Assembly: GCF_016758195.1 (NCBI RefSeq)
Contig: NZ_QYAC01000005.1
Span: 62,001 to 126,000 of the forward strand
Origin: Leucobacter chromiireducens subsp. solipictus
GTDB taxonomy: Bacteria; Actinomycetota; Actinomycetes; Actinomycetales; Microbacteriaceae
Direction of reading: 5' to 3'
DNA: 64,000 bases
A model generated the notes under the pieces. It was given only the letters and a program-made list of their open reading frames with translations. It did not search any database and was not told where the DNA came from. The position numbers and the translations under genes are program-made. Each line of letters starts with the position of its first letter. Position 1 is the first letter of the stretch. Positions 4,696-24,456 of this stretch are shown here, piece after piece.

Positions 4696-5514
4696 ATGAA
4701 GCTGTTCGGGAACGATGCCGTGTACCGTGACGGCTGTTTCTATCGCTTTGACTTCGGGTATCGCAATGTGCCGGGCGCTCAGCTCCACGCGGAAGCTCAC
4801 AGCATGATCCTGAGGGGTGTGCAGCGCTGCATGATGCCCATTAATGCGCCGTACTCTGACGCGAATATGTGGGAGGTCTGGCGGTATGACCCGCGCCCCG
4901 TGCGGCACGAGGATGGTTCGGTCAAGGTCGGAACGATCCTGAGCATTGAACATCAGCGTCGTTTGCGTGTCACGAATGACACTCCTGCGGCAGCGACGAC
5001 GCTAGCCGTGATTCGTTTTCCGAGGCAGCAGCAGTTGCATGGTGCGGTGATGTGTGGGCTTCCTTCCCCGATGTGGTTGGTCGAGGTCGACCGGCAGTAT
5101 GAGGCCGGTTGGGTGCTCTCGCGTCGGGTTGCTGACGTTGATAAGGAGGCTGCCACTTACCGTGATGAGTGGAAAGCGCAGGAGAGCGCCAAGAAGGAAC
5201 GTCGGGTGCACACGCCGAAACCGACCAGTGCCATGCTGAATCGTTCTGGGGAGAATGAAGTGATAGAGGGTTTGGCGGTTGTGCTCGGCGGCAAGGTGGT
5301 TGAGCAGTATTTAAATCCGTTGCATGTGCGGGCGAAGCTGCGCATGGTGAATTTCTTCGAGGGGTGGCCACACATTGCAGAGGTCAGCCGGTGGGTTGGC
5401 GCGGAGCACAGCGATGACAAGCATCGTGAGGAGGGGGAGCGCTCGTATCGGCAGATGCAGGCATTCCACGGGGCGAGCCGCGCGGACGCAAAGAAGGCGG
5501 CAGCGGGATCATGA
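4696..5514 (+). CDS. Unknown protein coupled to the DNA methyltransferase gene
   Basis: 272 residues from ATG 4696, which has GAGAGGGA just upstream; in-frame GTG codons at 4669, 4678 and 4693 are alternatives. No family was recognised. The first 110 residues are rich in aromatic and His residues, including FGNDAVYRDGCFYRFDFGY. The C-terminal part is charged and helical, with WKAQESAKKERR and a tail RADAKKAAAGS. It looks soluble, with no membrane segment. Its stop overlaps the methyltransferase start (ATGA at 5511-5514), so the two are translated together and may work as a pair. One GGGTATCG lies within it. Confidence 0.75.
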   Translation: MKLFGNDAVYRDGCFYRFDFGYRNVPGAQLHAEAHSMILRGVQRCMMPINAPYSDANMWEVWRYDPRPVRHEDGSVKVGTILSIEHQRRLRVTNDTPAAATTLAVIRFPRQQQLHGAVMCGLPSPMWLVEVDRQYEAGWVLSRRVADVDKEAATYRDEWKAQESAKKERRVHTPKPTSAMLNRSGENEVIEGLAVVLGGKVVEQYLNPLHVRAKLRMVNFFEGWPHIAEVSRWVGAEHSDDKHREEGERSYRQMQAFHGASRADAKKAAAGS

Positions 5515-6926
5515 CCTCGGATGTTGAAACGTCGAAGAAGTCACCAAAACGAGGTGCCTACACGTGGGCGAATGAGACTTGGTTGCCTGAGCGTGAAGCA
5601 TGGGTACTCGATTGGAAATTCAAGGTGCCAGAACCCGCGATGACTGCGACCGGGTATGAAGAAATCGAGGAGCACTGGCAGGCTCTCAGACGCAGGGAGC
5701 AGAATGCCCGCTTGGGCGTGAAGGCTGAGACTGTCATTTCGAGGGCTGAGCGGGGAAGCCTCATGCCGGACCGTGAAGTGCTGGCAGCGTCTGATGGCCG
5801 GGCCGAAACGCACCGCGCGGAGATTCGGGCGGTTGCTGAGGAGGCCGTGCAGTTGGTGAGGGAGCGGAACATCTTCCCGATCACTTACTACTCGACTGCT
5901 GGCGCTGAACTCGAAGTGTTGAAATGCATGGAGCGCGGTCTGGGTATCGCTCCAACGACCAAGAAGAATGCAGGGCGACGGAGAGACCGGTACTCGGTGG
6001 TGTCGTCAGGGCACACCGAGGGGGCGGACTTGTGCCGGTGGATGTTCCCGAACCTTTTTGACGTTGGGAGAAAAGATGGTGGACTGACGTGGTTTGGGCA
6101 GTTTCAGCAGATACAGGAACCGGGGAACCAGAAGCTCGCGAAGACCCTGCAACGAACCGGACTGCCAGAGAGTACCACGACGCTGCGAAGTCGGGTGCGA
6201 GATGGGAAGCCGCAGCCGACGAACTTCTATCCGATGGCCGCGCAAGAGATCTACCGAAGGTGGGCGCCAGAAGGCGGTGTGGTGTGGGATATGAGTTGCG
6301 GGTTCGGCGGCAGGATGCTCGGCGCGCTGACCTCACCAAAACGACTCACCTATATCGGAACCGACCCAGCGGGCGAGACGAGGCACAACCTCGGCAAGCT
6401 CGGGAACCTCATCGAGACGGTGACCGGGAAGCGCCATAGTTATGAACTCCATCAAGCCGGTTCCGAAGAAGATATTGGCCTGGTCTCAGAGATTGATTTT
6501 GCGTTCACGTCGCCGCCGTACTGGAACCTTGAATGGTACGAGACCACCGACAAAGACCAGACCCTAGAGAGATGGTTCGATGAATACGTCACCGTCACCA
6601 TCAAGCGGATATTCCGGGCGTTGAAGCCCGGGGCGAGGTATGCGGTGAATATTGCAGACTTCGATGTGGACGCAGCAGCAGACGGCGACAGCGGGAAACA
6701 GGGCCGGAAGAAGGAGCGGGTGAACTACGTTGACCGGTGGGTGGAGCTGAGCCTCAAGGAGGGATTCCGCTTCATTCGTCAAGACTCCCTCGAACTCACC
6801 GCTGGTTCGAGGACCCCATTGCAAAGCAAAGTGAACAACGTCACCCGCGACATCTTGCAGCTCGCGCCAGCGAAGAAGTCAGAACCCCTCCTGCACTTCT
6901 ACAAACCGCATACCACTGCTAAATAG
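5511..6926 (+). CDS. DNA methyltransferase (TSPPYW type)
   Basis: 471 residues. The SAM-binding motif I is DMSCGFGGRMLG (about residues 260-271), and the catalytic motif IV is TSPPYW (about 333-338), as in amino-methylating N4-cytosine/N6-adenine enzymes. About 200 residues precede motif I and may hold target recognition; they match nothing I recognise. The gene overlaps its upstream partner by 4 nt. No restriction endonuclease lies beside it, so it could be an orphan enzyme that protects the element, or part of a two-gene system with 4696-5514. Target sequence unknown. Confidence 0.85.
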   Translation: MTSDVETSKKSPKRGAYTWANETWLPEREAWVLDWKFKVPEPAMTATGYEEIEEHWQALRRREQNARLGVKAETVISRAERGSLMPDREVLAASDGRAETHRAEIRAVAEEAVQLVRERNIFPITYYSTAGAELEVLKCMERGLGIAPTTKKNAGRRRDRYSVVSSGHTEGADLCRWMFPNLFDVGRKDGGLTWFGQFQQIQEPGNQKLAKTLQRTGLPESTTTLRSRVRDGKPQPTNFYPMAAQEIYRRWAPEGGVVWDMSCGFGGRMLGALTSPKRLTYIGTDPAGETRHNLGKLGNLIETVTGKRHSYELHQAGSEEDIGLVSEIDFAFTSPPYWNLEWYETTDKDQTLERWFDEYVTVTIKRIFRALKPGARYAVNIADFDVDAAADGDSGKQGRKKERVNYVDRWVELSLKEGFRFIRQDSLELTAGSRTPLQSKVNNVTRDILQLAPAKKSEPLLHFYKPHTTAK

Positions 6927-6957
6927 ACCTTGTCAAGCAATGTACGAAGCAGTTTAA

Positions 6958-7029
6958 GTGCAGGTGGAAGGGGCTGATAGTGCAGGTGAACGTGCACAGT
7001 AGTGCAGTCGGCCAGCAATCCGAGTGCAG
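6958..7029. repeat. Iteron-like array of AGTGCAG
   Basis: AGTGCAG occurs at 6958, 6979, 7001 and 7023, at spacings of 21, 22 and 22 bp, close to two helical turns each. It lies just after the methyltransferase gene in non-coding sequence. Such phased repeats usually bind a replication initiator or a regulator; no initiator gene was recognised. Confidence 0.6.
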
Positions 7030-7716
7030 AGTTTATGCGGATTGCCGATGAGGGTATGTGGTTTTCTGGAGGCCAATTCTGTGTGGTTCTGAGGCTGGTT
7101 TGCCATGCTCGTGGGCCGCTCTGGGCCTCGTGTTACCTCTCGTTCGGCTCCGTTTTACCCCGCGTGTGCTCCTGGGCGCGCGACACGGCCTCTTACGCGG
7201 CCTTTCCTGCCTCTCGGGTGGCTAGGGGCTTCCTGGCTAGTTTCGTCGCTTACAGCGCCGTTACGGGCATTCGTGGTCAATTGGTGGATACTGAAGCCTC
7301 ACTGGAACCCTGAGCGGTACTAGAATCGGCATGAATACCCCGTTCAGCCACAGAAACGTTCGATTGGCTCCCGGCGCTCGGGCACTGAGTGACGTTCTGG
7401 TGCGGCTGAATGCCAGGGTTGTCGGCCTTCCTGTGCTCTCGCGCGAAATACGGTCCGTTACAGGAACAGACGGAACATCATGAGGCAGTCTCTTTCAATC
7501 AAGTGAGTCGGCGGTTGAATAGACCTACAACACAAGCCGGGGGCTGGAGAGAGAACGCCCATCGGAGACCTCCCTCCGGCTGCCGTGAGTCGCCGGGATA
7601 TTCGCCGAATCGAGCTTGGTGCGTGCCGGTGAGTCGTCCGGTGTGAGTGCCACCCGGTGATGGTGCCGGTGTCGTCGCACGAGGGTATCGCTGAGGAGGC
7701 AGGGCTTCTGAGGAAC
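7030..7716. other. Non-coding stretch of element 1
   Basis: About 690 bp between the iteron-like repeats and the 3' end of the membrane-protein cluster. Short open frames here have no ribosome site and read as low-complexity Ser/Arg-rich shadows. It holds one GGGTATCG (7683). A cis-acting role (origin or transfer site) is possible but only by position. Confidence 0.4.
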
Positions 7717-8898
7717 CTATTTGAGATACATGAACCAGTTCCCGATCAATCGATCCCGTGACACATCCTCAGTCTGATCGCCGCTCTTCAAGCTGTAGAT
7801 GTTCTCGTGCGCTTCCACCGGGACCGGGGTGCCCGCTGGGCAGAACCACAGTTGGCTATGGCGATGCACCTTCCCAGTTGCGCGGAGGCACCCGCCCTGT
7901 TTGCTCCAGGTCGGGGTATCGTGCACGAAGATGGCAGGGCCGGTGTATGCACCGCTTGGAACGTCGATCATGCTGATCTGGGTGCCTTCGACGAAGAGCC
8001 CGATTGCGCCTCCGGTGCCGAGAGATTCGCCGGGGAGGATGCTCCACTCACCGTCAGCGATGTCTTCTACTCGCGGCCCAGCCGAGTCCTTCACCTTCCC
8101 GCTGAGGGTATTCAGATTCTCCATAGTGGTGCGCAGATCTGCGGGGTGTGCCTTCGGATCGTCGGCCAGCACCTGGGCATCGCTGATCGCCTGCTCCAGC
8201 TGAGCAACGAGTTCAGCGTCGCCTGTATCTCGTGAGGCGTCGAGGATCTGCTCAGCTTTCTCAATCTCGTTGGTGAGTGACTTCACCATTGTTTGCCGGT
8301 GGCTGTCGAGAAACAGTGCGGATGCGTCGGCAAGCTGTTTCGTGACCGCCCGCACCTCACTGGTGGCTTTCTCGATGTGCTGGGTGTCGCTCCCGATCTG
8401 CTCGTTCGTCTCGCTCGGATCGGCCTTGATGAAGTCGTGATGTTCGAGTTCGTCAGCCGCAGCTATCGCAGTGGTGAACGATTCATTGACCTCTTCGATG
8501 TTGTCAAGCGAGGTCATCGACAGCTGCCCGTGATCGTCCCGGGTATCGGTGCTCTGGCGATCAAACTCAGTCCATGCGGCTTCGTATGCGGTGATTGCAT
8601 CGGCGTGCTTCGTGAGTGCGGCCTTGTGCTCAGCGGCTTGGGTCGCCTGATTGATGAACACAACCGTAGTCGCGGCTCCGCCCCCGAGAACAAGTGCCGC
8701 GGCCGTGATGATCCACAACCACTTGTGCCGCTTCTTCTTCGGCGTGCTGGAGACACCGGGGGTATCGCTCGGAGGTGGCGGTGGAGTGGCCTGTTGAGCC
8801 TCCGGCCCAAGCGCCGCTGACGGCAGAGGCGCGGTGCTAACTGAGGGTGGTGGGAGCTGTGACAGGTCGGGCGTAGTCGGGGTATCGGGGGTGTTCAT
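7717..8898 (-). CDS. Single-pass membrane protein with Pro-rich head and coiled-coil ectodomain
   Basis: 393 residues. A Pro/Ser/Thr-rich N-terminus carries PDLSQLPPP and ends in the basic stretch TPKKKRHK. One membrane helix follows (WLWIITAAALVLGGGAATTVVF, about residues 60-81). A long helical region with heptad-like spacing then runs to about residue 280, and a compact C-terminal domain contains two Cys. The likely topology is Pro-rich head inside and coiled coil outside. It is the last gene of a minus-strand cluster and shares LSQLPPP with the gene before it. Function unknown; cell-surface or envelope work is inferred. Confidence 0.75.
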   Translation of the reverse strand: MNTPDTPTTPDLSQLPPPSVSTAPLPSAALGPEAQQATPPPPPSDTPGVSSTPKKKRHKWLWIITAAALVLGGGAATTVVFINQATQAAEHKAALTKHADAITAYEAAWTEFDRQSTDTRDDHGQLSMTSLDNIEEVNESFTTAIAAADELEHHDFIKADPSETNEQIGSDTQHIEKATSEVRAVTKQLADASALFLDSHRQTMVKSLTNEIEKAEQILDASRDTGDAELVAQLEQAISDAQVLADDPKAHPADLRTTMENLNTLSGKVKDSAGPRVEDIADGEWSILPGESLGTGGAIGLFVEGTQISMIDVPSGAYTGPAIFVHDTPTWSKQGGCLRATGKVHRHSQLWFCPAGTPVPVEAHENIYSLKSGDQTEDVSRDRLIGNWFMYLK

Positions 8899-8916
8899 CG
8901 TTGATCCGTTCGAGGG

Positions 8917-9621
8917 TTAGCAGCCGTATTGTTCCCAGCTGCGGACGATCTGATAGAAACCTTCACCATTTGCCGGGGTGACAGTGAGTTCGTGCCCGGT
9001 GAGGTAATACTCCGTGCCGTCAGCGTTGGTCATACGGTGCCCGGAGACCCCGCCACCCGGGAAATAGACGGCCTTGGCCGGGAGAGTGAGGTAGCCAAGG
9101 TCAGCGTTCCCGCCGACGTAGATCCAATCACCCGAAGCAGTGTTGCTGTTCTCGAACAGATACACCTCGACCTCTTTGGTGGTGCCGTACACGCAGAGCT
9201 TTGTAGCTTCTTCGGGTATCGGTGCCGCACCACTGCCGGGAACCTCGAGCGTTGGCGCTGACTCGGTGGTCGGCTGGGGTTCCGTCTCGCCCGGTGTGGG
9301 CGTGACCGGCATTACCTCCGGGACGTCGCTATCGACGCGTGCTGTCGGAGCGGAGTCTGGCTGCTCAGAGGTGCCCGGTGATGACGAGAACGGTGTGAAA
9401 ACGAGCACGGCGACCACTGCCCCGACCAGCACGACCGCGGAGGTGGCTGCGGTGACAATGATGCCGAGGTGCCGGGGCTTTTCGGTGACTTTCTGAGTGT
9501 CTGTGCTGAAATCCGGCGGGGGTAGCTCCGACAGGCTCGGGTCTGGCAGCGACGCGTTGCCTGGCAGCGGAGGAGGCGGTAACTGTGACAGATCAGGGCC
9601 AGGGGTTTCGGGAACGCTCAT
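8917..9621 (-). CDS. Single-pass membrane protein, LSQLPPP family
   Basis: 234 residues from ATG 9621, whose ATGA overlaps the stop of the upstream DUF2510 gene; this translational coupling decides the start over one at 9672. The N-terminus has PDLSQLPPPP and LSELPPPDF, a short basic stretch, then a membrane helix (IIVTAATSAVVLVGAVVAVL). After it come a Pro/Thr/Glu-rich stalk and a small C-terminal domain with two Cys (KLCVYG and the final YGC), which could be disulfide-bonded outside the cell. Only 18 bp separate it from the downstream partner. Function unknown. Confidence 0.75.
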   Translation of the reverse strand: MSVPETPGPDLSQLPPPPLPGNASLPDPSLSELPPPDFSTDTQKVTEKPRHLGIIVTAATSAVVLVGAVVAVLVFTPFSSSPGTSEQPDSAPTARVDSDVPEVMPVTPTPGETEPQPTTESAPTLEVPGSGAAPIPEEATKLCVYGTTKEVEVYLFENSNTASGDWIYVGGNADLGYLTLPAKAVYFPGGGVSGHRMTNADGTEYYLTGHELTVTPANGEGFYQIVRSWEQYGC

Positions 9622-9905
9622 GATGTGCTCGTAGGGTGCCCGGGTATCGCTGGCTGCTCGTGTTCGGTCCATGCTGACCCATCCCAGTAGCGTTCAATGC
9701 TTGTATTCGTGGGGTCGAGATACCAGCCTGCGGGCGTCTCAAGCCGTTCGGCTTGCCGCTGCTTCGCTTTGCCCCTGATAGAGAGGAAGACGATAGCGAA
9801 CACGATCACGGCGATCACCAGGATCGGCACGATGATGATGAGCCAAGGGAGCATGTTGAAGCCCGAACCGCCGCCGGTTATGCCTTCACCTCCGGTGTTG
9901 AACAC
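9618..9905 (-). CDS. DUF2510 membrane protein
   Basis: 95 residues from GTG 9905, which follows AGGAGG by about 7 nt. One strong membrane helix (MLPWLIIIVPILVIAVIVFA) is followed by a cytoplasmic DUF2510 module, PAGWYLDPTNTS then RYWDGSAWTEH. DUF2510 is a short Trp-containing motif common in actinobacterial membrane proteins; its ligand is not known. The gene overlaps its upstream neighbour by 28 nt and its downstream neighbour by 4 nt, so the cluster is one operon. Confidence 0.8.
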   Translation of the reverse strand: MFNTGGEGITGGGSGFNMLPWLIIIVPILVIAVIVFAIVFLSIRGKAKQRQAERLETPAGWYLDPTNTSIERYWDGSAWTEHEQPAIPGHPTSTS

Positions 9906-10552
9906 TGTGCACCTCCTGAAGTTTCCGTCAGGTGTACGAGCTTCGCGGTGTGCTGCGAGGTGCGGATGAGTGCGATGGTCACTTCGAGCGTGACCCGGCA
10001 GAACAGGACCGTCAAGAGCACACCGATAGGGCCGAGAACCAGTTGCAGCACTCCCAAGACCTGGAAGAATTCGAGGTCGGAAGATTGGCCTCCGATAGTA
10101 AACAGAATGATCGCGCCGACGATCCACCAGAGCACCGAAAAGATCGACACCAACAGATAGATCAACCGCGCAAACGAAACCGTGACCACGCGATCTGATG
10201 CGAACGAAAGATCGAAGAGGCTGCGGAAGAACCCCGCCTCACGGCTCGGACGTGGCGGAGCGACCTGTGGACGCATCGAGGCGGGCGGGATCGAGCCGCG
10301 CACCGAAGCAACGGACTCGGGCGGCGCGGGTGGAAGCCCTGCCCCGGAACCTTGGGGCGCTGGTGATGGTGATGGTGTTGGCGCTGGCTGTTGGGGCGCG
10401 TTGCCTCTCGCCGGGGTATCGCCTGCGACCTCGGGTGCGACGGGGCGAACCTTTTCAGTCCAGGTTGTTCCATCCCAGTAGCGGAGTTGCTCGCTGTGAG
10501 TGGGATCGGGATGCCAGCCAGCAGGAGGCAAATTGTTTGGATGCTCAGTCAT
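9878..10552 (-). CDS. DUF2510-DUF4282 membrane protein
   Basis: 224 residues. The N-terminal DUF2510 motif reads PPAGWHPDPTHSEQ then RYWDGTTWTEK (residues 9-33). A Pro/Ala linker leads to a C-terminal DUF4282 domain, which starts FFRSLFDLSFASDRVVTVSF and holds two membrane helices, then FCRVTLEVTIALIRTSQHT. It is the first gene of the DUF2510/LSQLPPP operon, lies downstream of a surface-protein gene, and is separated from that gene by a hairpin. Function unknown. Confidence 0.82.
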   Translation of the reverse strand: MTEHPNNLPPAGWHPDPTHSEQLRYWDGTTWTEKVRPVAPEVAGDTPARGNAPQQPAPTPSPSPAPQGSGAGLPPAPPESVASVRGSIPPASMRPQVAPPRPSREAGFFRSLFDLSFASDRVVTVSFARLIYLLVSIFSVLWWIVGAIILFTIGGQSSDLEFFQVLGVLQLVLGPIGVLLTVLFCRVTLEVTIALIRTSQHTAKLVHLTETSGGAQCSTPEVKA

Positions 10553-10569
10553 GACTCTCCTACGTCACT

Positions 10570-10605
10570 GAGGAGGTCTCCCGGCAAGTACTGGGAGACC
10601 TCCTC
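10570..10605 (-). terminator. Hairpin between surface protein and DUF2510 operon
   Basis: A perfect 13-bp inverted repeat (10570-10582 with 10593-10605) lies 20 bp after the stop of the surface-protein gene and just upstream of the DUF4282 gene. It probably ends or attenuates the minus-strand transcript. Confidence 0.7.
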
Positions 10606-10625
10606 AAGATTTGTTAGATGCGGTT

Positions 10626-11528
10626 CTACGCCTGGCGGCGCTTCGCCGCGAAACCGAGGAGCCCTGCTCCAGCGGCAAGGATTGTGGCAGCGGCCCCTGC
10701 GAGTACTCCAAACGGTGTGCTGCCGGTCTCAGCAAGCGTTGCGGGAACCTGGGTATCGGTCTTCACTGCAACGGGAGTCGCGCCGCTCTCGCCTTGGGGG
10801 CCGTCAGGAACCGTTGGGTTGACCGGAGGAACAGGCTTCGGATCAACCGGGGGAACGGGATCGACTGGGTCCACAGGATTAACGGGGTCTACGGGATCGA
10901 CCGGGTCCACGGGGTCTACCGGATCAACAGGGTCGACTGGGTCGGTCGGTCCTGACGGCTTGCCGGTCGTATTGAACATGATCAACGAGTTCAGTTCGAG
11001 GCCGTTGTCACCCACCCAGGTCAGGTCGAAGGTGATGCGATCAGCGTCGCGGTAGTCCATCTCATAAGAGAACTCGCACGAAGCTGAGCCGCCAGCCGGG
11101 ATCGCGATAGGGAGTGGGCAGGTAGACATATCGACGTTGCCGTAGGCCCCGGTCTTTACCAGGTCGTAGCCGGTGATGAGCTGGTCCTGGTCGGTGTAGT
11201 TCATGAACCACTGGAAGCTCCAGTAGGTCGAACCAACTGACTCGCCGTAGGCACCCCACGAGTTGTCAGCATCGCCCGGGCGGGGATGATCGGCGGGGTC
11301 AAATCCCCAATCAATACCCGATCCTGCGGCTACGGGTGCTGCCAGTGTCTCGGCTGAGGTCTCCTCGCTGTTTGCGGACACCTCGACGTCAACAGTTGGA
11401 GCCGTGTCGATGGTGTCAACTGCGAATGCAGCCGCAGGACTCAGAAGCCCCGCTGCTACAACCCCGGTTGCCACGACTGTGGCCATGGCTTTCTTCTTGT
11501 CGTTCCGCCAAAAACTTGAACGCTGCAT
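10626..11528 (-). CDS. Secreted surface protein with DPV repeats and LAETG sortase motif
   Basis: 300 residues. A signal peptide (basic start, then [22 protein letters not shown]) is followed by a mature domain of about 150 residues with two Cys and many Trp/Tyr. Next comes a low-complexity spacer of about a dozen DPV or NPV triplets. LAETG (265-269), a hydrophobic helix and a KRR tail end the protein. LAXTG is the class E sortase signal of actinobacteria, so the protein is expected to be linked to peptidoglycan. A GAGAGGGA ribosome site precedes the ATG. No sortase gene is in this window. Its place in the element suggests a cell-contact role. Confidence 0.85.
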
Positions 11529-11685
11529 GTGTTGTTCCCTCTCGGTGTCTCAGGCAATCGCTGCTGCCCTGATTGCTATAGATGCACGCGTCTAGGTATC
11601 GGCTATGCGTGCCTCAACTTGACACTTTATAGCATGACCTCAATAAAGGGTGTTCTATTGCTGTACCCGTGCAGATGATTAATTA

Positions 11686-11943
11686 GTGGCATGGGACAAA
11701 CAGAAAGCTGAGCGGTTCGGGGAAACGCTGAAGGACCTCCGAGGAGCGAAGGGCTTCACGCAAGAGTCGTTGGCTTGGCATGCTGGGACGACCAAGAACC
11801 AGATTCAGCTCCTTGAATCGGGAAAAGCTTCTGGGAATCAGGGCGTTGATCGGCCTTCAAATCCGAGAATCACATCACTGATGGGGCTTGCGGATGCGCT
11901 TGGCATGTCTCTTGCTGAACTCATGGAAGCTGCTGACCTCTAA
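11686..11943 (+). CDS. XRE-family HTH regulator
   Basis: 85-residue single-domain helix-turn-helix protein: LRGAKGFTQESLAWHAGTTK is the recognition region, and NPRITSLMGLADALGMSLAEL is the typical last helices. The start is GTG 11686; no clear ribosome site precedes it, so it may be leaderless. It is divergent from the LAETG surface gene, with a TTGACA word at about 11619 in between. It may repress the surface cluster or element genes; this is inference from position. Confidence 0.85.
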   Translation: MAWDKQKAERFGETLKDLRGAKGFTQESLAWHAGTTKNQIQLLESGKASGNQGVDRPSNPRITSLMGLADALGMSLAELMEAADL

Positions 11944-12423
11944 CTGGCCCAAAGGTGTCAGCATTAGAAACGTGAATGGCAGTATTAGAAACCACAATTC
12001 GAAACTCGCCGACTGATCCGCGCACATTTCTCGCGCCTGCGCCATAGATGATTGTGATCCGCGCGCGAGTAAGCGCTGAGGCGCGAAAGAGTTAGTACGG
12101 CCCTTCATGGGCCTTTGCGTAGTTAGTTTTTCTTGTTAGCTCCGCGCTCACAATAAACCCTTCCGGGTCCCTGTTTCCTGCCCCGGACGGCCCCGTGGCG
12201 CGCTTTTCGGGCGCGCGTGGCCCCTCGGGGCCGCATCACGCTTGTTAGTTCGCCTCCGCGTCGCGTGCGGGCTTCGGCGGTTCGGACGGCGTTACAGGTG
12301 CCAGCCCGATAGCTGAGCGCCCTCGCTCCGTGTGCTTAGCTTTCGGGCGCTGATTCGAGAGCGTCGTGGGAGGTGATGTGTGCGGTGGGGTACACCTCAC
12401 CGGGCAGTGAGCATGCTGCCTGA
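11944..12423. other. Non-coding, structured stretch of element 1
   Basis: No gene seen. It has a small hairpin GGCCC-TTCAT-GGGCC then TTTG (12099-12113), probably the terminator of the XRE gene. It also has a GC-rich nested structure: GGCCCC 12189-12194 with GGGGCC 12227-12232, enclosing GCGCGC 12198-12203 with 12211-12216. This could be an untranslated RNA or a single-strand origin hairpin; neither is shown. Confidence 0.45.
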
Positions 12424-12465
12424 AAGTGTGTTGTTCAGGGTGGCATCCCGCCACAAAACACACTT
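12424..12465 (+). promoter_or_regulatory. Nested inverted repeat before the resolvase gene
   Basis: Outer arms AAGTGTGTT (12424-12432) and AACACACTT (12457-12465) enclose inner arms GTGGC (12440-12444) and GCCAC (12450-12454). It ends 18 bp before the resolvase ATG. It may be a res-like binding site for autoregulation or an mRNA hairpin. Confidence 0.5.
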
Positions 12466-12483
12466 ACGCATGGAGGTCTAGAC

Positions 12484-13080: not shown

Positions 13081-13215
13081 TCCACCGCAGCTCTTGATCT
13101 CTAATGTATCGGGCGCAAAGTACTGAGACCCGCTTTTGTGGATTAGACCTTCCCCACCCCCGCCAGGGTCTATTGCCATAAGGTGCTCCACGCGTGTCTC
13201 TGCATGCGGTCGCGG

Positions 13216-14778: not shown

Positions 14779-14854
14779 TTCTCACGCACCTCTCTGCATG
14801 CTGAACCTGGAGTTCATGCTCACACGACTCAGGGGTGGAGGCGAGAACCGCCCG

Positions 14855-15171: not shown

Positions 15172-18100
15172 ATGGGGTCCGACCATTCCTACAGCGGGTT
15201 TGGGCGTGGTATCAAGAAAGTGCTAGCAACTGCGCTTGCAGCCTCCCTTCTGACTTTCGGTGGCGCAGGAGCTGCGCAGGCAGTTCAAGCACAGGTACCG
15301 CCCGCCGACAACCCACCCATGCCAGCTCAGTGCGAACTCGACCTCGTCATGAGCCTCGACCTTTCGAACAGCGTCGATGACGCGCAGTTGCAGCAAATGC
15401 GCGACGGCGTGGCAGAACTGGCCGAGTCACTGAGCGAATATCCCGTGCGGTTGTCGCTGCACAACTTCGCCTCGAATGCACCGGCAACAAACGCAGGCAG
15501 CAACGCTCCGTTGCCGATCACGGCGCTCGACAATGCAGGCGTGCAAGCGGTGACAAGTTGGGTCAACGGTATCCAACGCCCCTCCAGCCAGCAGGGGGGC
15601 ACGAACTGGGACCGAGCCTTCGCTGCAGTGGGTAGCAGCAGTGACACCTACGACGCGCTCCTGTTCGTCACCGATGGAAACCCGACTCAGTACGGCAGCC
15701 CCGCACAGGGGCCCGGCAACTCCACGAACACTGCCACGATTAACGCCGCAGTGACGAGCGCGAATGCCGTCAAGGCTCAGGGCACCCGTGTCGTCGGTGT
15801 TGGCCTGACGGACAACATCACTGACATGGACGAGTTCCGCGAGCACATGTCACAGATCTCGGGTCCCGTTGAAGGCAGCGACTACCTGTCAACGAACTTC
15901 GAGGGGCTCTCGGACATTCTCCTCGCCCTCATTTCAGACAACTGTGCTGCAGCATCGAATCCAGCGATCGAGCTCGTGAAGACCGCAGCACTCGCTGACG
16001 GCTCTGTCGGGCTTGCCGGAGACACGGTTGAGTACTCGTTCGCTGCGACGAACACTGGCAACGTCACCCTGACTGGCGTTGAGATCTCAGATCCGAAGCC
16101 GGGGCTGTCGGACTTGGTGTACAGCTGGCCCGGCGAGCCAGGAGTGCTTGAGCCTGGTCAGCAAGTCACAGCGACAGCAACGTACACGATCATTGAGTCG
16201 GACCGGGACAACAAGGTTGTCCAGAACTCCGCAAGCGTCACCGGAAACCCGCCGACCGGCCCTCCGGTGACCGATGAAGATGACGCAGAGGTACTCCTTC
16301 CGAACGATCCGGCTATCGAGCTTGTGAAGACTGGTGGCCTCTCTGACGGCGCGACTGGCGTCGCCGGAGATATCGTTGAGTACGCGTTCACCGCAACGAA
16401 CACCGGTGGGGTGACCCTCACCGGTGTTGAAATCACTGATCCGCTCCCTGGGCTCTCGGACCTCACCTATGTTGAATGGCCAGGAGCGCCTGGCGTTCTC
16501 GAGCCCGGCCAGAGCGTTACCGCGAACGCCACGTACACGGTGAAGCAGTCGGACGTGAACGCTGGCAACATCCACAACGTCGCAACCGCTACCGGCACCC
16601 CGCCTACCGGCGACAATGTGGCTGACACTGATGACAACGATGTGCCGCTGGCGTCCAACCCGGCAATCACCCTTGTGAAGACCGGTGCTATCGCTGAGGG
16701 GCAGACCGGCAAGCCCGGTGACACCGTCGAGTACAAGTTCACGGCAACCAATACCGGGAACGTGACCCTCACTGATGTGTCGATCGCCGATCACATGCCC
16801 GGCCTCTCCGACATTGTGTACGGTGACTGGCCCAGTGAAACAGGTGTTCTTGCGCCCGGTCAGAACATCACTGCCACCGCAAACTACACGGTGAAGCAGT
16901 CGGACGTGAACGCAGGAGTAGTCGATAACACCGCTACGACCGTTGGCACCCCGCCCGCTGGCGACGATGTCACCGACACCGACGATGCCACCGTCCCGCT
17001 GCCGCAGGATGCGCGCATCGCTGTTGAGAAGACGGGTGCGCTTGCACAGGATGCGACTGGTCGGGCGGGTGACACTGTGGAGTTCGGCTTCACTGTCACC
17101 AACACCGGCTCAGTGACCCTCACTAATGTCGAGCTCGAAGATCCGCTTCCCGGCCTGTCTGACATCACGTACGGCGCATGGCCCGCTGCTGCTGGCGTCC
17201 TCGAACCCGGGGAGAGCGTCACGGCTACGGCAACCTACGTCCTCACTCAGAACGATGTGAATGCAGGCGGCGTGGACAACTCTGTCACCGCCACCGGCAA
17301 CCCGCCAACTGGTGAACCTGTCGAAGACCAGGACGACGTGACTGTTCCTGTGGATTCAAACCCGGCGATCAACCTTGTGAAGACAGGCGGTCTCGAAGAC
17401 GGCGCAACCGGTGAAGCTGGCGACACCGTCCAGTACTCGTTCACCGCAACGAATACCGGCAATGTGACACTTACGGGTGTCACGATCTCGGACGAGCTCA
17501 ACGGCCTGTCAGAGATCGCGTACGGCGTGTGGCCTGGTGACACTGGTGTGCTTGCACCCGGAGAGAGTGTGACTGCGACCGCATCGTATGTCCTCACGCA
17601 AAGCGATGTAGATAGCGGGCGTGTGGAGAACACCGCAACCGCTACTGGCAACCCGCCAACGGGTGATCCGGTGGAGGATGACGACATTGTGATTGTTCCC
17701 GTTGAGCCCTCACCTGCGATCACTCTAGTGAAAGCCGGCGGGCTGGAAGACGGTGCAACCGTAGTCCCGGGCGATCTCATCGAGTACTCGTTCACCGCGC
17801 AGAACACGGGCAATGTAACGCTCATTGACGTGACAATCGCTGACGAGCTGGAAGGCCTGTCGGAGCTGACCTACACGTGGCCCGGCGAAGCAGGCGTCCT
17901 CGCTCCCGGTGAGCAGGTGACTGCAACCGCGACCTACACCATCACCCAGGCCGATATCGACGCGGGTATTGTCCACAACTCCGCTATCTCGACCGGCAAC
18001 CCGCCCACTGGCGAGCCAGTCGAGGACGAGGATGAGCATGACGTGCCGCTCACGCAGCTGCCCGTAATTGATCTGGTGAAGACCGGTCAGCTCGACGGTG

Positions 18101-19212
18101 AAGGATTCGCAGGCGATACGGTCAACTACGGTTTCACTGTCACCAACACCGGCAATGTCACACTTACTGATGTCACGGTTGTCGACGAGCTGGAGGGCCT
18201 GTCAGACATCGTGTTCGGCACGTGGCCCGGAACGGCTGGGGTTCTTGCCCCGGGTGAGAGCGTCACAGCCAGTGCCGCCTACACGCTCACCCAGGCTGAC
18301 GTGGATGCAGGCAGTGTAGACAACACTGCAACTGCGACCGGTACCCCGCCGAAGGGGGAGGACGTGACGGACACGGACGACGTGACCGTACCTGTCGCCC
18401 CTGGCCCCGGGATCGATCTGCGGAAGTCGAGCAGCCTCGAACAGGGAGCCGGCTCAGTTGCGGGCGATACCGTCAACTACCGTTTCACCGCCACCAACAC
18501 CGGCAACGTGACACTTACAGGCGTGACGATCGTCGATGAGATGGAAGGCCTCTCTGAGCTGAGCTACACCTGGCCCGGCGAAGCAGGGACCCTCGCTCCA
18601 GGTGAACAGGTGACCGCGACAGCGACCTACACGCTCACCCAAGCTGATGTAGACGCTGGAAACGTGGACAACCACGCGATCACGACCGGCACCCCGCCGA
18701 CCGGCGATCCAGTGGACGATGACGACGACGAGAAGACGCCGTTGCCCCAGTCCCCCTCCATCGAGCTGGTGAAGACCGGGAAGCTGAACGGTGACACTAT
18801 CGCTTACAGCTTCACCGTGACCAATACCGGCAACGTCACGCTCACGGGCGTAGAGATCACTGACAAGCTCGCGGGCCTGTCGGAGATCACCTACGGCGGA
18901 TGGCCAACCGAAGCTGGTGTACTCGCCCCGGGCGAGCAGGTCACTGCTTCCGCAGAGTACAAGGTCACCGATGCCGATCGAGACCGTGGACGAGTGGATA
19001 ACCATGCCACCGTTACCGGAAACCCGCCTTCGGGACAGTCAGTGACCGACGAAGACGACGTGAAGGTCGTCGTTGGGACGCTCGCGATCACCGGTTCTGA
19101 CTACGTCGGTGCGGGGATCCTCGCCGCAGGTCTGCTGCTCGGAGGCGGAGCGCTCCTGCTACTGATGGTGCGCAAGCGCCGCACAGCTGGCGAGCTCACT
19201 CAGCTGAGCTAG
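15172..19212 (+). CDS. Giant surface adhesin: VWA domain, nine DUF7507/DUF11-type repeats, LAITG anchor
   Basis: 1346 residues from ATG 15172, preceded at 7 nt by AGGAGG; GTG 15115 with AAAGGA is an alternative giving a longer signal peptide. A signal peptide ends near AAQAVQA. A von Willebrand A domain follows, with a MIDAS-type DLSNS and FVTDG. Nine repeats of about 117 residues each begin around AIELVKTG and contain TNTGNVTL and TGNPPTG. The protein ends in LAITG (about 1304-1308), a membrane helix and RKRR. It is expected on the wall through a class E sortase. Repeat-type stalks usually extend a binding head; here the head is VWA. It is divergent from a LuxR regulator. Confidence 0.88.
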
Positions 19213-19228
19213 CAACGAGTTCATTGGG

Positions 19229-19276
19229 GCACCGTCTCAAGCCCTCGGGTTCCCCCGTAAAGGCTTGAGACGGTGC
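19229..19276 (+). terminator. Hairpin terminator after the adhesin gene
   Basis: 15-bp perfect inverted repeat (19229-19243 with 19262-19276) with an 18-nt loop, 17 bp after the adhesin stop. Confidence 0.75.
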
Positions 19277-19410
19277 TCCGTGACTTGCAGCAGCCCAAAG
19301 ACCCGTCACGCAAGCCGAAGGGCACCGCCGTTTAGCGGAGCTTCTTAAGTGCTGGTTGTGGCGTCCAACGCCGCCGGGCTCATCCCCCCCTTGCGAGCCT
19401 AGGCGGCGTT

Positions 19411-19452
19411 TGTGTGCCCCGTATCGGACTAAGGTCCGATACGGGGCACACA
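19411..19452. terminator. Second strong hairpin, 19-bp arms
   Basis: Perfect 19-bp arms (19411-19429 with 19434-19452) and a TAAG loop, followed by CCTTTTGG. It could act on either strand. The stretch 19453-19861 shows no gene. Confidence 0.75.
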
Positions 19453-19861
19453 CCTTTTGGGGCAGTTGATGTCCTGTTAAAGCCTGAGCTGGGAGCCGGG
19501 CCGATGTTTGTTGCCGCGGTGGAACATCACGCTCCTACATAGCCGACGAGGTGAGCTTGATCTGTCTGCGCGATGCGAACCCGCATCCGATTCTCACCCC
19601 GAAGCTCATGAGAAGCCGGGCCTACCCAAGCACGGCTTGTCGGAGTCTGGCCTAACGATCGCCTCGACGGCAGATTAGCCAATTGGATGCGAGCCGGACC
19701 CCAAACGAGCGCCGACGCGAGCACATAGACGTGCAGAAGCGAGCGTCGAGCGACCAGGAGCGGGAAATGCTCATGGGTGATGAAACTCTTGCAATTTCAG
19801 ATGGATGAAAGTCGTTCTGTAGATCGGTCGCGGGCACGTAGCGGCGCGGGCATGATCGAGA

Positions 19862-19897
19862 CCCCTTGGGAAGCAGCCAACCCCTGGCTGCCAAGGG
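19862..19897 (+). promoter_or_regulatory. Nested inverted repeat before the second recombinase-like gene
   Basis: CCCTTG with CAAGGG encloses GCAGCC with GGCTGC, about 25 bp before the ATG at 19922. The nested layout resembles the one before the intact resolvase gene at 12424, although the sequence differs. Confidence 0.45.
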
Positions 19898-19921
19898 CAA
19901 ACGATTAAGGAACAGCAAGCT

Positions 19922-20557
19922 ATGGCACTCAAAGCCTCAAAACTTATGCCCCGCACCTATGCACCCGAACGCGAGCCCCGCGTGATCGGATACCTCCGCA
20001 TCCACGACAACGACACCGAACCAGAGGCCCAGGAAGCGCTCCTGGGAACCGTCGAGGCCCTATTCATCGACGCCACCTCAGGCATGAACGGCTCTCAACC
20101 ACAGCTCAACGCAATGCTGACTATCGCAAGGCGGGGCGACGTGATCAGAGTCGCCACTATCGACCGCCTCGGCACCACCCTCGCTGACGCAATCGACATG
20201 CTGACGCTCCTCACCGGTAAGGGGCTGGAAGTGCAGTTCGGTGACCAGAAGCTGATCTGCCAGCCAGTGACGCTTGAACGGTCAACGGCAGAGGAACGCG
20301 ACTGGCTCGTACTCAACCACATCCGCGCAGCTGACCGAGCCCTCCGCAACGCTGGGGCCGTCTGGCACAACCACTTCTTCAGTAATGGCGGAGACGAAGA
20401 TACGAAGCCTGCGCTGTCCATCGAGGACGTGGAACTTGCCGAGCGGCAGATCGAGGCACACATCCCCCGCAAGAAGATAGCGGAAGGCCTTGGGGTATCG
20501 CCCGCAACACTCTTCCTCGCAACCCACCGACACGGGGAGTATTCCAACTACCCCTGA
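19922..20557 (+). CDS. Serine-recombinase-like protein with His in place of the catalytic Ser
   Basis: 211 residues. After about 20 extra N-terminal residues the domain reads VIGYLRIHDNDTEPEAQ; His28 stands where the intact resolvase has Ser12. The arginine motif reads ATIDRLGTTLAD, so the second active-site Arg is also lost. The dimer helix region is shortened and altered, but the C-terminal helix-turn-helix remains (RKKIAEGLGVSPATLFLATH). AAGGA lies 10 nt before the ATG. It should still bind DNA but not cut it. With 3986-4603 this makes two inactive family members beside one active enzyme in the same element. Confidence 0.8.
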   Translation: MALKASKLMPRTYAPEREPRVIGYLRIHDNDTEPEAQEALLGTVEALFIDATSGMNGSQPQLNAMLTIARRGDVIRVATIDRLGTTLADAIDMLTLLTGKGLEVQFGDQKLICQPVTLERSTAEERDWLVLNHIRAADRALRNAGAVWHNHFFSNGGDEDTKPALSIEDVELAERQIEAHIPRKKIAEGLGVSPATLFLATHRHGEYSNYP

Positions 20558-20929
20558 GCGCTAATCCCCTCTCGGGCATAGGTCCGGCTGAGGCCGTCAA
20601 GACGGAGAGAGTTGTGTGCCTACGTGATCACTTTCAGGTGGGCGCGCAACCGCCGTCCAAGCACGGTGCTACCGCGAGCAGCGTCGGAAACGAGCAAACC
20701 GAATCAGTAAAGAAGGACACCAAGAAGAAGGTCCGAGCGGGAAGAAGTCGTGGGAGTAGCCCATCTTGCTCGTCATCCCGAAGGCAGTCATTGTGCTCAG
20801 CGTGTGAAGCGGTGCTTATTGTGACGCATGTGTCTGAGTCGCTTCTCGTAGGTGGCAGCCCGCACCACCCCGCACCGGGGCAGGTGCTAGCCGCCGCACC
20901 TATCAATGATTCAAGAAGGAGAATCACCA
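20558..20929. other. Non-coding gap before the excisionase gene
   Basis: About 370 bp. An open frame exists, but it runs through the excisionase gene in another frame and lacks a ribosome site. A short inverted repeat AGGTGC/GCACCT lies near 20882-20902, just before the excisionase ribosome site, and may be a regulatory site. Nothing else is seen. Confidence 0.4.
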
Positions 20930-21169
20930 ATGATTCCAAAGATGCAAGAACAGACACCTCCAGAAGTGGCGACGGTCGAGGTTGGCACCTACACCGAGAC
21001 CGAGACGGCAACGCGCATCGGCGTTGACCGCACGTCAGTGCGACGAGTCGCGCTCACTAAGCCCGACCACCCGATCGCTAGAGCGTGCCTCACGGTCACG
21101 GAGAACAAGCGGGTCTACTCGCGCGAACTCATAGACGCATACGTACGTGGGCAGGGGGCAGCCAAATGA
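20930..21169 (+). CDS. Excisionase-like small DNA-binding protein
   Basis: 79 residues from ATG 20930, with AAGGAG 9 nt upstream; an earlier in-frame start lacks such a site. The core YTETETATRIGVDRTSVRRVAL is a winged-helix/HTH_17-like recognition region, and the protein ends with SRELIDAYVRG, the usual wing and last helix. Its stop overlaps the integrase ATG (ATGA at 21166-21169). Small HTH proteins in this position usually act as recombination directionality factors, needed for excision. Confidence 0.75.
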   Translation: MIPKMQEQTPPEVATVEVGTYTETETATRIGVDRTSVRRVALTKPDHPIARACLTVTENKRVYSRELIDAYVRGQGAAK

Positions 21170-22227
21170 CCGTCAAGAAGCATGGGAACCGTTGGCGGGC
21201 GATGGTGCGCAAAAACGGCGAGTACCTCGGATCGAGGAAGTTTGATCTGAAGCGTGACGCGGAGGCATACGAGCGGAAGCTCTTGGAAGAATATGCTGAC
21301 GGTATCGATGTGCGTCAGGGCAGTCGTCAGGTATCTGAGTATGTGGCTGATTTTCATGAGTATCGGGAACTCATGAACCGAGTTTCTGAAGCAACACGGG
21401 AAACTGATAAGCATATGTTCAAACGAGTTCCGACATGGTTCCTGAGCCTCCGGGTGAAAGACGTGAAGACTCATCATGTTGAGAAGGCGTTAGCCGAGGA
21501 CGCGCGAGAGCACGAGCGAAAAGAAGGAAGCATTATCCGGTATCGGACGACTCTCTCTGCGTTCTTTACCTACTTGATGAACACGCGGCAGATCATCACA
21601 CGGAACCCTGCACGAGCCGCGGCGATCCCTGGCACGCAACTGTCACCAGAGAAAATCCCGTGGCTGGGCACTGAGATCGATGAGCGCTTCCTCATTTGGA
21701 AGGAAAAGGACAGAGGGATGGCTGAGATCGCGTTGGTGATCTACTTCCTCGCACTGCGCTGGGGAGAGGCTCGCGCGATGGAAGTCGGTGATGTGATGCT
21801 TGATGGTAAGCCGCGCGTGCTCGTTCAGCGGTCTCTGTCAGAAGGGAAGACTGTTCCGAAGAGCACGAAGACGAAAAAGGTTCGTTGGGTTCCGATCTCT
21901 AACGTGATTCTGCCGACCTTGCAGCGGATGGTGGAAGGCCGAGGAAAACGAGAACGACTTTTTCCTGAGCTAACCCGCACACGTTTCAAGTGGCGGCTGC
22001 GCTGGGACGAGACCGGGCAGGGGAAGAATCTCCACTCGCTGAGGCATGGAGGTATTACTGCGTGGGCAGAAGCCGGGCTGCCAGTGCCGCTCATGCAGAA
22101 GTGGGCTGGACATGCTCGGGTTGAGACCACGATGAAGTATGTGCACTTGGTGGGTGATCAGGCGAGCGCTGCGGGTGTAGCAATGATCAACGCCCATAAC
22201 CAACGCCTTGGAATCACAGCCAAATAG
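21166..22227 (+). CDS. Tyrosine recombinase/integrase of element 1
   Basis: 353 residues. An N-terminal arm-binding domain (KHGNRWRAMVRKNGEYLGSR) and a core-binding SAM-like domain precede the catalytic domain. Its residues are visible: Arg198 (ALRWGEARAME), His290 and Arg293 (HSLRHGG), His316 and the nucleophile Tyr325 in ETTMKYVHL. The first four fit the R-H-R-H/W pattern. It is translationally coupled to the excisionase-like gene. It should act on the 49-bp tRNA-Thr core. It lies 2.2 kb from the right end of element 1 and is the only full-length tyrosine recombinase in the island, so it may also serve element 2. Confidence 0.95.
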   Translation: MTVKKHGNRWRAMVRKNGEYLGSRKFDLKRDAEAYERKLLEEYADGIDVRQGSRQVSEYVADFHEYRELMNRVSEATRETDKHMFKRVPTWFLSLRVKDVKTHHVEKALAEDAREHERKEGSIIRYRTTLSAFFTYLMNTRQIITRNPARAAAIPGTQLSPEKIPWLGTEIDERFLIWKEKDRGMAEIALVIYFLALRWGEARAMEVGDVMLDGKPRVLVQRSLSEGKTVPKSTKTKKVRWVPISNVILPTLQRMVEGRGKRERLFPELTRTRFKWRLRWDETGQGKNLHSLRHGGITAWAEAGLPVPLMQKWAGHARVETTMKYVHLVGDQASAAGVAMINAHNQRLGITAK

Positions 22228-22287
22228 GTAATTGGGTCTGGTGCGGGCTGAGAAGACTGGTCGTCTTGGTCCGCATCAGGCCCGCTG

Positions 22288-23223
22288 ATGCGGAGCTACT
22301 CTTATTTTGTGAGCAATCAACATCCGAAGAAGCATCACTTTGTTCCCCAGCTTTTGCTTAACAACTTTGCCTCCGACGAACAACTATGGGTGATGCCAAT
22401 CGAGCAGGAGAGAAGTCTTCCATACAAGGCATCGGTCAAGAACGTTGGCCATGTCAATGGTGGACATCGCATGATCAAGGCCGATGGCACTGAAGATTGG
22501 ACGACGCTCGAAGCATCTATGAACAAGTTAGAGACCGCCGCAAGCTTAGCGATCAAACAGCTTCATGAGGACAAAAGCATTTCCTTGGTTTCGCGTGAAT
22601 TGAAAGAGCCCATCGCTTGGCTAGCTGCGCTCCAGAGGGCAAGGAGCAGGACATTCCTTGGCTCGGTGGCCCACGTCCTGGGGGACGCGCCCAACGAAGA
22701 GGAACTCAAAGGTACTCAGTTCGAGCTGCAGACCACCCTTCTTCGAACGGGACTGTGGAACCTTTTGGGTAAGTGGGCGGTTCAGGATAATGATTCGGTT
22801 TCCGTAGCAGAAAGTTATGAACCATTCGTCCACTACCTATTGTCGCTGCGATGGGACGTGATGCGCTTCGAACAGCCCGAACTTGTTGTCTCAGATGCGT
22901 TTGCTGCTCAGTATGGTGTCAGCGCTCTCGGCAAGCCCCCCAGCCCGTCGGAAGTTTGGGGAGCAAAATTTGGAGTCAACGTCCCGTTCTCGCGCGCGGA
23001 GGGATTCACGATAGCTTTATCCCCGAGGATGGCGCTTCATATTCACCATCGGAATGAACGCTGGGGTGGTGATCCAAATACTGTAAACATGCACACTGTC
23101 CTTAACGCGAGGTCCTTCATCGCGTTCCCTGGTGATGCGAATCCTAAGGAAGTCCTTGTCCCTCTCCTGGACTGGGTTTTCGAAGCGAGGGGATTGCGTT
23201 CCTGTATTCCTCCTTCTTTGTGA
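22288..23223 (+). CDS. DUF4238 family protein
   Basis: 311 residues (304 if GTG 22309 is used; neither has a strong ribosome site). The N-terminal signature KKHHFVPQLLLNNFASDEQ, then SVKNVGHVNGG and DGTEDWTTLEASMNKLE, identify DUF4238, a family of unknown biochemistry found in mobile and defence-rich regions. The conserved HHFVPQ and acidic residues suggest a possible enzyme. The gene sits between the integrase and the right end of element 1, the usual cargo position. Composition is less GC-rich than the chromosome. Confidence 0.8.
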   Translation: MRSYSYFVSNQHPKKHHFVPQLLLNNFASDEQLWVMPIEQERSLPYKASVKNVGHVNGGHRMIKADGTEDWTTLEASMNKLETAASLAIKQLHEDKSISLVSRELKEPIAWLAALQRARSRTFLGSVAHVLGDAPNEEELKGTQFELQTTLLRTGLWNLLGKWAVQDNDSVSVAESYEPFVHYLLSLRWDVMRFEQPELVVSDAFAAQYGVSALGKPPSPSEVWGAKFGVNVPFSRAEGFTIALSPRMALHIHHRNERWGGDPNTVNMHTVLNARSFIAFPGDANPKEVLVPLLDWVFEARGLRSCIPPSL

Positions 23224-23457
23224 AGGAGGACCGTTGTTGATTTTCTAAGTGTGCTGAACGCGGCTACTGCGTGGAATTAGCGGCTTAAGGTCGTTCCGAA
23301 GTGAGCAGTTGGATCTGACGCTTGTTCGCGTAGTAAGCCGGGTTGGCATCTCACCTTGCATCACGCCCGAACGAACGATAGAAGCAGTAGTTAGGTGAAT
23401 TGATCTTCTGCGCATGTAGCAGCCTCAAGAGAACATGATTCCCTGTTGAAGGACGAT

Positions 23458-24099
23458 TTAAGTCGTCTGATCGCCGCGTATCGATGCGTGCGCGAAATCT
23501 TGAACGGCCATCGCAGCTCGCACGGAGTACTCCAGAATCTGGCTCGACATCGGACTTCCGCCATTGTTCCGCTGTGTCGCTGTCGTCAGCATCCAGGTGA
23601 TGCTGGGGTCCATCGTGGCGGACTTCTTGTCGGCGTGGTGGGCCGCCACGGCATTACGGATCAGAGATAGCGCCTTCATGAAGTCAGCGTCCTGACGAAT
23701 GGGGCGGAGATCCTCGCGGAACTGTCGGGCAGCAGCCTTATGGAGTTCTGGGTCAGCCTTGGACGCGCTGCCGGGTCTACTCATCTCGCGGATAGCCTCA
23801 CTGATTGCAAGAGGCGCGCGTTCTAGTACTTCGTAAAGGTGTAGCGCGAGATATTTCTCCCAGACGTACCGGTCCTCAGGGGATTCCAGAAGACGATATA
23901 CCAGCGCCTTCGTTTCGTAGTCGATGAGTGCCAGGTAGAAGACAAGCTCGACGCCCGGACGGTGTGACTCCCAGTCAGGGCGCTTCTTCGCGCTGACGAT
24001 AAAGTAGGCCGTTTGCTCGACGGTCTCACGAGCTTTTGATGCTCCCTCGGCGAAACGCCTTGCGTCCCAAATCTCTGAATCCTGTTTCCTAGTTGCCAT
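23458..24099 (-). CDS. Helical protein of unknown function with HEPN-like RNxxxxH motif
   Basis: 213 residues, almost wholly helical. Near residue 150 it has LIRNAVAAHHADKKSA, which resembles the R-x(4-6)-H motif of HEPN nucleases; this is a visual resemblance only. No ribosome site is visible before the ATG at 24099. It is the last gene of element 1, opposite in strand to the DUF4238 gene. If HEPN-like, it could be an RNase or abortive-infection protein. Otherwise unknown. Confidence 0.6.
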   Translation of the reverse strand: MATRKQDSEIWDARRFAEGASKARETVEQTAYFIVSAKKRPDWESHRPGVELVFYLALIDYETKALVYRLLESPEDRYVWEKYLALHLYEVLERAPLAISEAIREMSRPGSASKADPELHKAAARQFREDLRPIRQDADFMKALSLIRNAVAAHHADKKSATMDPSITWMLTTATQRNNGGSPMSSQILEYSVRAAMAVQDFAHASIRGDQTT

Positions 24100-24402
24100 A
24101 CGGAGAGCTTAGGAGGCGCATCCGACATTTCAGTCCGGTTCTTTGAGCGTACTTGTGTGGCTTGTTGTGTAGCCAGCGATCAAGAACGAAGCGAGGCTTG
24201 GGCTGGCTTCTTCTAAATCCGGCCTCAGCGTTTGATGGCGTTAATCCGGCTAGGCCGTTGCCGTCCGTGTCAGGGGTGCACGGCGTGCGTTCAGGGGCCT
24301 ATTCTGTGCCGGATGGACACGGCATGGACACCTCTCCTGGGTATCGATTCGTTGATGCGACCCACTGGCTATGGGGAGCAGCTAAAACTACTAATGAGTC
24401 AT

Positions 24403-24416: not shown

Positions 24417-24456
24417 GACCACAGTAAAGCAAAATGCCTGATGAGAGATAAGACAA

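Follow-up and report, generated by a model that had tools for sequence, protein, structure and literature searches.

Evidence for a selected, strand-polar octamer in a family of Leucobacter integrative elements

The octamer GGGTATCG is, on well-supported grounds, a selected, strand-polar DNA word of a family of integrative elements in Leucobacter. The window analysed is a stretch of 64,000 nucleotides of Leucobacter chromiireducens subsp. solipictus (contig NZ_QYAC01000005.1, positions 62,001 to 126,000; coordinates below are those of the window), and it is an integrative element of the window, here called element 1, that is rich in the word. This element occupies approximately 3663..24530 and is flanked by copies of a repeat in which tRNA-Met is joined to the 3' part of tRNA-Thr (3506-3662 and 24451-24606).

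Results

An exact word count of element 1 gives 15 copies of GGGTATCG on the + strand and 0 on the − strand. The initial annotation had listed 15 positions by eye, all of which are correct, with none missed. It had also stated that the reverse word is absent from element 1, that a second element of the window (element 2, 24610-32400) has neither form, and that about five copies lie in mixed orientation in the chromosomal part; the counts agree, being 0, 0/0 (GGGTATCG/CGATACCC), and 2 forward with 3 reverse, respectively. GGGTATCG is the top octamer of element 1 both in copy number and in strand difference, the second best-scoring octamer is a shifted form of it, and no unrelated octamer of the element reaches a similar count. 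Markov models of orders 1-3 predict 0.2-0.9 copies, in line with the earlier estimate of less than one. Under order 3 the expectation is 0.86 (P about 1e-13), and 300 order-3 simulations of the element yield a mean of 0.88 and a maximum of 5 copies of the word, with a maximum of 9 for any octamer. An order-4 model fitted to element 1 mostly absorbs the word, as expected, leaving it outside the top words. Each one-mismatch variant reaches only 0-2 copies on the forward strand, which shows how sharply the octamer is delimited. It is non-palindromic, and its density is about 0.7-0.9/kb in the elements, against about 1 copy in every 58 kb of a host strand; overall, element 1 is roughly twenty times as rich in the word as the host chromosome. 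About 0.3 copies of CGATACCC are expected in element 1, and its zero count is by itself no avoidance.

A related element was confirmed in Leucobacter komagatae (NZ_JXSQ01000034.1, equated with G413:C34; 23,643 bp), the sole relative confirmed in a scan of 84,980 species, one genome per species, with the element-1 protein P0003. Because it was found by protein and not by word, this element provides an independent test. Its main contig carries 21 forward and 0 reverse copies of GGGTATCG, and the right end, on contig C36, adds 2 more that match in direction once turned to fit element 1 (a third C36 copy, outside the aligned part of the element, is left out). The L. komagatae element thus holds 23 copies on one strand; the minus-strand word, whose equal frequency in relatives the initial annotation had set against its own proposal, has 0 copies there. 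The direction is the same at 38 of the 38 sites in the two elements, and at 26 of 26 if each set of homologous sites is taken as one (sign test, 3e-8).

The main alignment between the two elements spans 4.4 kb at 83% identity and points to selection on the word itself. Eight of the nine window sites within it are intact, compared with 37.6% of all octamers (P 0.0023), and across the 10 sites of either species substitutions affect only 2 of the 80 columns, where 12.1 would be expected (P 2.3e-4). Synonymous third bases are unchanged in 24 of 25 cases inside sites vs 77% elsewhere (P 0.013). In a second alignment the single window site (12735) has changed; the right end retains the site at 24339, and one site of L. 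komagatae has no counterpart in the window. The L. komagatae element contains two diverged copies of a unit made up of a P0001-like gene, a methyltransferase gene and a membrane-protein cluster (L012 267-7660, and L012 13991-20000 with L013 1-1700), and the dense part of each copy contains the octamer. In the second cluster, which is 67% identical, 2 of the 5 alignable window sites persist vs 8% of octamers, and additional sites of its own are present. The flanks of the 26 sites show C at +9 in 16, T at +10 in 18 and a pyrimidine at −2 in 20, and the weakly extended form of the word is YN-GGGTATCG-CT; T at +10 is found in 11 of the 13 sites filed as intergenic or unclassified.

The fifteen sites, all on the + strand, are unevenly spread along element 1. 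The first two lie in the genes of P0001 (281 aa; 4669..5514, +) and P0002 (471 aa; 5511..6926, +), at 4756..4763 and 5942..5949. An intergenic site at 7683..7690 is followed by four in the P0003 gene (393 aa; 7717..8898, −), at 7914..7921, 8541..8548, 8760..8767 and 8880..8887; these five are conserved in L. komagatae, that at 8541 also in the diverged second module. The P0004 gene (251 aa; 8917..9672, −) holds a site at 9214..9221, likewise conserved in both L. komagatae modules, and at its start a conserved site at 9642..9649 that is coding only with the first start codon. A site in the DUF2510/DUF4282 gene (9878..10552, −), at 10414..10421, is replaced by GGGAATCG in L. komagatae, and the one in the P0005 gene (300 aa; 10626..11528, −), at 10751..10758, is conserved. 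The gene of serine recombinase 2 (12484..13080, +) has sites at 12735..12742, not conserved (L. komagatae has GGGTGTCG), and at 13004..13011, beyond the alignment, as is the site at 20493..20500 in the gene of serine recombinase 3 (19922..20557, +; partial Resolvase domain). The last site, at 24339..24346, is located ~110 bp inside the right end and is conserved.

The sites are densest in the P0003-P0004-DUF4282-P0005 cluster, with 9 in 4.6 kb, and the L. komagatae counterparts have 11 in 5.0 kb and 9 in 5.7 kb (cluster limits were drawn by the analyst). Outside the dense cluster there are 6 copies in element 1, all forward, and 3 in the L. komagatae element. Each of the three dense clusters observed has a P0001-P0002-like gene pair ahead of it. 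P0003 has a proline-rich N terminus, 1 membrane span apparent by eye and a C-terminal domain, a layout shared by P0004; P0005 looks secreted and has, by eye, a sortase-type C terminus. The LuxR and DUF7507 adhesin cargo (13216..19212) is octamer-free on both strands, as had been read for the 13.2-19.2 kb block; the proposal that this block is later cargo agrees with the L. komagatae element, whose adhesin stretch likewise lacks the word.

Thirteen of the element-1 sites are coding, in genes of both directions and in all three frames (5 in + genes, 8 in − genes and 2 in neither). Shuffling the synonymous codons of the element-1 genes 2000 times gives means of 1.02 forward and 0.17 reverse copies. 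Amino-acid order alone therefore produces some excess of + over −, but the shuffles never exceed 5 forward copies against the 13 observed, and the polarity extends to intergenic DNA and to L. komagatae, where the word is conserved. An origin by chance, base composition or codon use is accordingly hardly credible, in agreement with the earlier argument that codon use does not suffice; its example, the peptide GLGVS in two recombinase genes, holds for one of them, the other reading RLGVS. ATA is a rare codon (10 of the 208 Ile codons), and the octamer at 9214 contains it, as do the two homologous L. komagatae sites. On the L. komagatae contig C34, 1 site lies in + genes, 11 in − genes and 9 in neither, and at least 25 of the 38 sites of the two elements are within coding sequence. 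The orientation of the octamer tracks the DNA strand, not gene direction, and for this reason RNA-level readings and strict stoperators fit badly. What remains after RNA-level readings is the option of a directional DNA reader.

The same observations bear on the possibility that GGGTATCG marks dispersed asymmetric sites of an element-encoded repressor or silencer, similar to the stoperators of mycobacteriophages. The 15 and 23 asymmetric sites per element, each a core with a weak flank, resemble the 20-30 of stoperator phages, and a Cro/CI-type helix-turn-helix (HTH) protein of 85 aa (11686..11943, +) is conserved in both elements. In the phages the repressor combines an HTH with a Stoperator domain; the 85 aa protein has a single HTH. 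However, stoperators are oriented with transcription, according to two reports (PMC9283540, PMC6550527), whereas genes of both directions hold sites here and most sites are coding. We regard this explanation as quite improbable.

The host background is different. The own genome contains 136 copies of GGGTATCG, and the 121 outside element 1 comprise 73 forward and 48 reverse, a split from which nothing is inferred, contig directions being arbitrary. Across 54 Leucobacter genomes (own included) there are 45 to 201 copies each, with mostly similar strands and a few uneven cases (e.g. 54/82). A sample of 322,858 bp of the own chromosome has 16 copies on both strands, 1.1-2.2x the 7.4-14.0 expected (Markov orders 1-6). 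When two-arm polarity was sought in the Leucobacter genome G398, the best agreement, 48 of 74 listed copies (77 in total), was equalled by all 300 shuffles; contig C1 of Leucobacter G376 gave 41/62 (P 0.38). The absence of polarity in these two chromosomes speaks against host KOPS, Chi and AIMS, of which the last favour the leading strand of a chromosome and rise in number towards its terminus. None of 296 sampled genomes of the phylum shows a massive excess, the highest count being 857 copies in 7.5 Mb with nearly equal strands. The distant genomes G668, G518 and G472 seemed all-plus among the matches listed, and the full list for G668 is mixed. In G518 the word appears by eye mainly forward in the first 1.2 Mb and mainly reverse after, as if arm-biased.

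Chi is an exact polar octamer, and a Chi-like site of the recombination nuclease of the host, or of a former host, would have this form. Yet the near-expected number in the chromosomal sample, the lack of two-arm polarity and the lack of massive enrichment across the phylum sample make this very improbable.

The pattern is also rare beyond the host. Scans of genomes for pairs, which detect only GGGTATCG pairs spaced 205-235 bp, yield multiple pairs in no genomes other than those of the two elements. Any pair occurs in 4 of the 54 genus genomes; among 398 family genomes 23 have one, with just a single pair in all except the own genome, and by a rough estimate the single-pair genomes are at about chance level given their copy numbers. 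A reversed control pattern, whose word is several times rarer, gives 4 pairs in the 398 family genomes. Strand scoring with similar contexts merged yields −16.6 and −20.7 for the two elements; the loci used for comparison, 28 viral ones that have P0002 relatives, 6 others in Leucobacter and 15 stretches of chromosome, reach −8.7 at best. No relatives were found in viral contigs by P0001, alignment A1 or the integrase. P0002 has 32 relatives there, and the 28 of at least 8 kb that were scored have no comparable word; 24 phage records match P0002, over at most 66% of the query. P0001, P0002 and P0003 have no match among plasmids. Distant P0004 relatives in G434, G351 and G423 show no enrichment of the octamer, nor do four weak integrase relatives (G437, G410, G430 and G426). 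Beside the distant integrase relative in G437, a 20 kb locus (L170) contains CCCTGGCT 16 times on one strand and 0 times on the other, which is probably a repeat, since merging similar contexts removes it from the top scores.

At least 120 viral-contig stretches contain GGGTATCG pairs. High one-strand counts in L056 and L092 proved by context to be repeats, and L061, L072, L102, L112 and L131 were set aside for the short regular spacing of their copies. One-sided runs that are not plain repeats occur in L105 (6/0), L114 (10/0), L149 (0/5) and L130 (0/4), with counts inflated by their choice for having a pair. Among the matches listed by a full-text search for the octamer, no title concerned such a signal, and the listings for strand-biased plasmid octamers, uptake sequences or KOPS, and Leucobacter elements gave nothing on element 1, which does not prove that it is unpublished.

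Element 1 further encodes a tyrosine integrase (21085..22227, +). The + strand of its backbone and of the flanking chromosome is slightly G-rich, from which + is probably the leading strand at this locus. Rfam at gathering cut-offs finds only tRNAs in 3400-33000. The intergenic stretches 7070-7300 and 12090-12350 appear by eye to be rich in short GC-rich inverted repeats; the hairpin-rich stretch 12070-12380 has a fold z of −1.4, which does not set it clearly apart from shuffled sequence. Element 2 occupies the same tRNA site and has a defence-like set of genes (type IV restriction enzyme-like, PD-Lambda-1-like, PDC-M36A-like and FRG-domain proteins). With a third copy of the tRNA-Thr/tRNA-Met repeat at 32403-32565, the three copies suggest that elements 1 and 2 are tandem insertions at one site. 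A stretch of 100 bp at a gene start is common to both elements (3897-3996 and 27702-27801, 76% identical).

Discussion

Based on the above data, we tentatively favour a reading in which GGGTATCG, with its weak extension, is a polar recognition word for replication or transfer machinery that the element owns or needs. A machine supplied or needed by the element would read the word one-way on one strand, and the copies could act as loading, priming or guide sites while the excised element is replicated or transferred. A protein of the element with a role in replication or transfer is ranked first because the element encodes a candidate preceding each dense cluster, and P0001 would be the likeliest element-encoded reader. 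Its structural model is closest to Prim-Pol (AEP) replication domains, with weak fold similarity. P0001 has no convincing sequence match in Pfam, PHROG or PDB; an assignment as a replicase, made from the sequence by eye, was not confirmed by Pfam. The ranking of the explanations is a matter of our judgement and was not computed.

A more far-reaching version is possible, though doubtful: the element family may have its own polar 'address word', with a repeated unit that joins a Prim-Pol-like protein and a methyltransferase to a GGGTATCG-studded membrane/surface cluster, and its own machinery reading one-way on one strand. Such a word could tell the element apart from the host genome in replication or cell-to-cell transfer, and the coding sequence would have been bent to keep the octamer, down to the use of a rare codon.

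The nearest rival to the replication/transfer word differs from it solely in the reader, which would be a double-stranded DNA translocase of the FtsK/TraB type. The host or a helper conjugative element would provide this translocase, which would be guided left to right in transfer or segregation, as with TRS or with KOPS, which the gamma domain of FtsK reads. The exact polar 8-mer, its G-rich 5' half and the uniform left-to-right direction would suit such a guide, and TraB recognises 8-bp TRS repeats at clt, as described in PMC4170104. However, a six-frame search with PF01580 found no FtsK/SpoIIIE domain in element 1 or its relative: the matches, 4 in one genome and 6 in the other, are on contigs C1, C4 and C6 of G000 and C1, C7 and C19 of G413, with none on the contigs of the elements (C7 for element 1, and C34 and C36 for L. 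komagatae). Guidance of the host FtsK is unlikely given the two Leucobacter chromosomes without polarity, and the KOPS bias of enterobacterial plasmids is, in PMC11724359, a property of large replicons and comes without enrichment. Overall, we consider a translocase guide rather unlikely.

Less likely again is a strand-specific modification target of P0002 and its L. komagatae homologues, serving as a self-mark or as an epigenetic switch over the membrane-protein cluster. P0002 is a class I S-adenosylmethionine (SAM) methyltransferase with, by eye, an SPPY motif; it falls below the Pfam cut-off for N6_N4_Mtase, which both L. komagatae homologues pass, and it has methylase matches in PHROG and PADLOC. 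The three gene pairs ahead of dense clusters would also agree with this idea, and HIP1 (PMC6604393) offers a parallel, as an earlier case of an over-represented octamer with a tie to methylation. Among the mechanisms that the initial annotation had suggested, a polar DNA-level word is supported and a host KOPS or Chi is not; a TRS-like guide is conceivable although no TraB/FtsK domain was found on the element, as is a modification target of the encoded methyltransferase.

The polar octamers compared here are chromosomal (KOPS, Chi, AIMS) or, where they lie on mobile DNA, belong to a protein that has been identified (TRS, stoperators). The word described here is exact and one-way, and an integrative element preserves it through coding DNA, in both species and also in the diverged duplicate of the cluster. 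If the word guides replication or transfer, it would show that a mobile element can have a direction code of its own even where no translocase is recognisable. The octamer is a direct handle on a set of proteins without known function.

Among known systems, the TRS of Streptomyces plasmids are likewise a repeated 8-bp word on an actinobacterial mobile element. They are located at clt and read by plasmid-encoded TraB (PMC4170104), whereas our sites extend over 20 kb, mostly in coding sequence, with no TraB domain found; the 15 and 23 direct copies are dense over 4.6-5.7 kb and sparse elsewhere. KOPS and AIMS are strand-biased octamers under selection (PMC5993296), as ours appears to be, but they follow whole-chromosome arms, while GGGTATCG is concentrated in an element of ~21-27 kb and the tested chromosomes are non-polar. 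HIP1 of cyanobacteria, a highly iterated, selected octamer linked to methylation (PMC6604393), shares a possible methylase link, yet HIP1 is palindromic and genome-wide and GGGTATCG is non-palindromic. The stoperators of cluster A mycobacteriophages are many asymmetric sites of one consensus across an actinobacterial mobile genome; theirs lie in promoters and short intergenic gaps, whereas ours are mostly coding and ignore transcription. Chi shares the exact polar octamer, but GGGTATCG is unoriented and hardly enriched in the host genome. Finally, Prim-Pol/AEP plasmid proteins offer a likeness in the element-encoded protein with a weakly Prim-Pol-like fold and in the use of one strand. Known cases of sequence-specific priming or initiation by this family rely on one origin or on motifs that are very short, whereas the Leucobacter elements carry a dispersed octamer.

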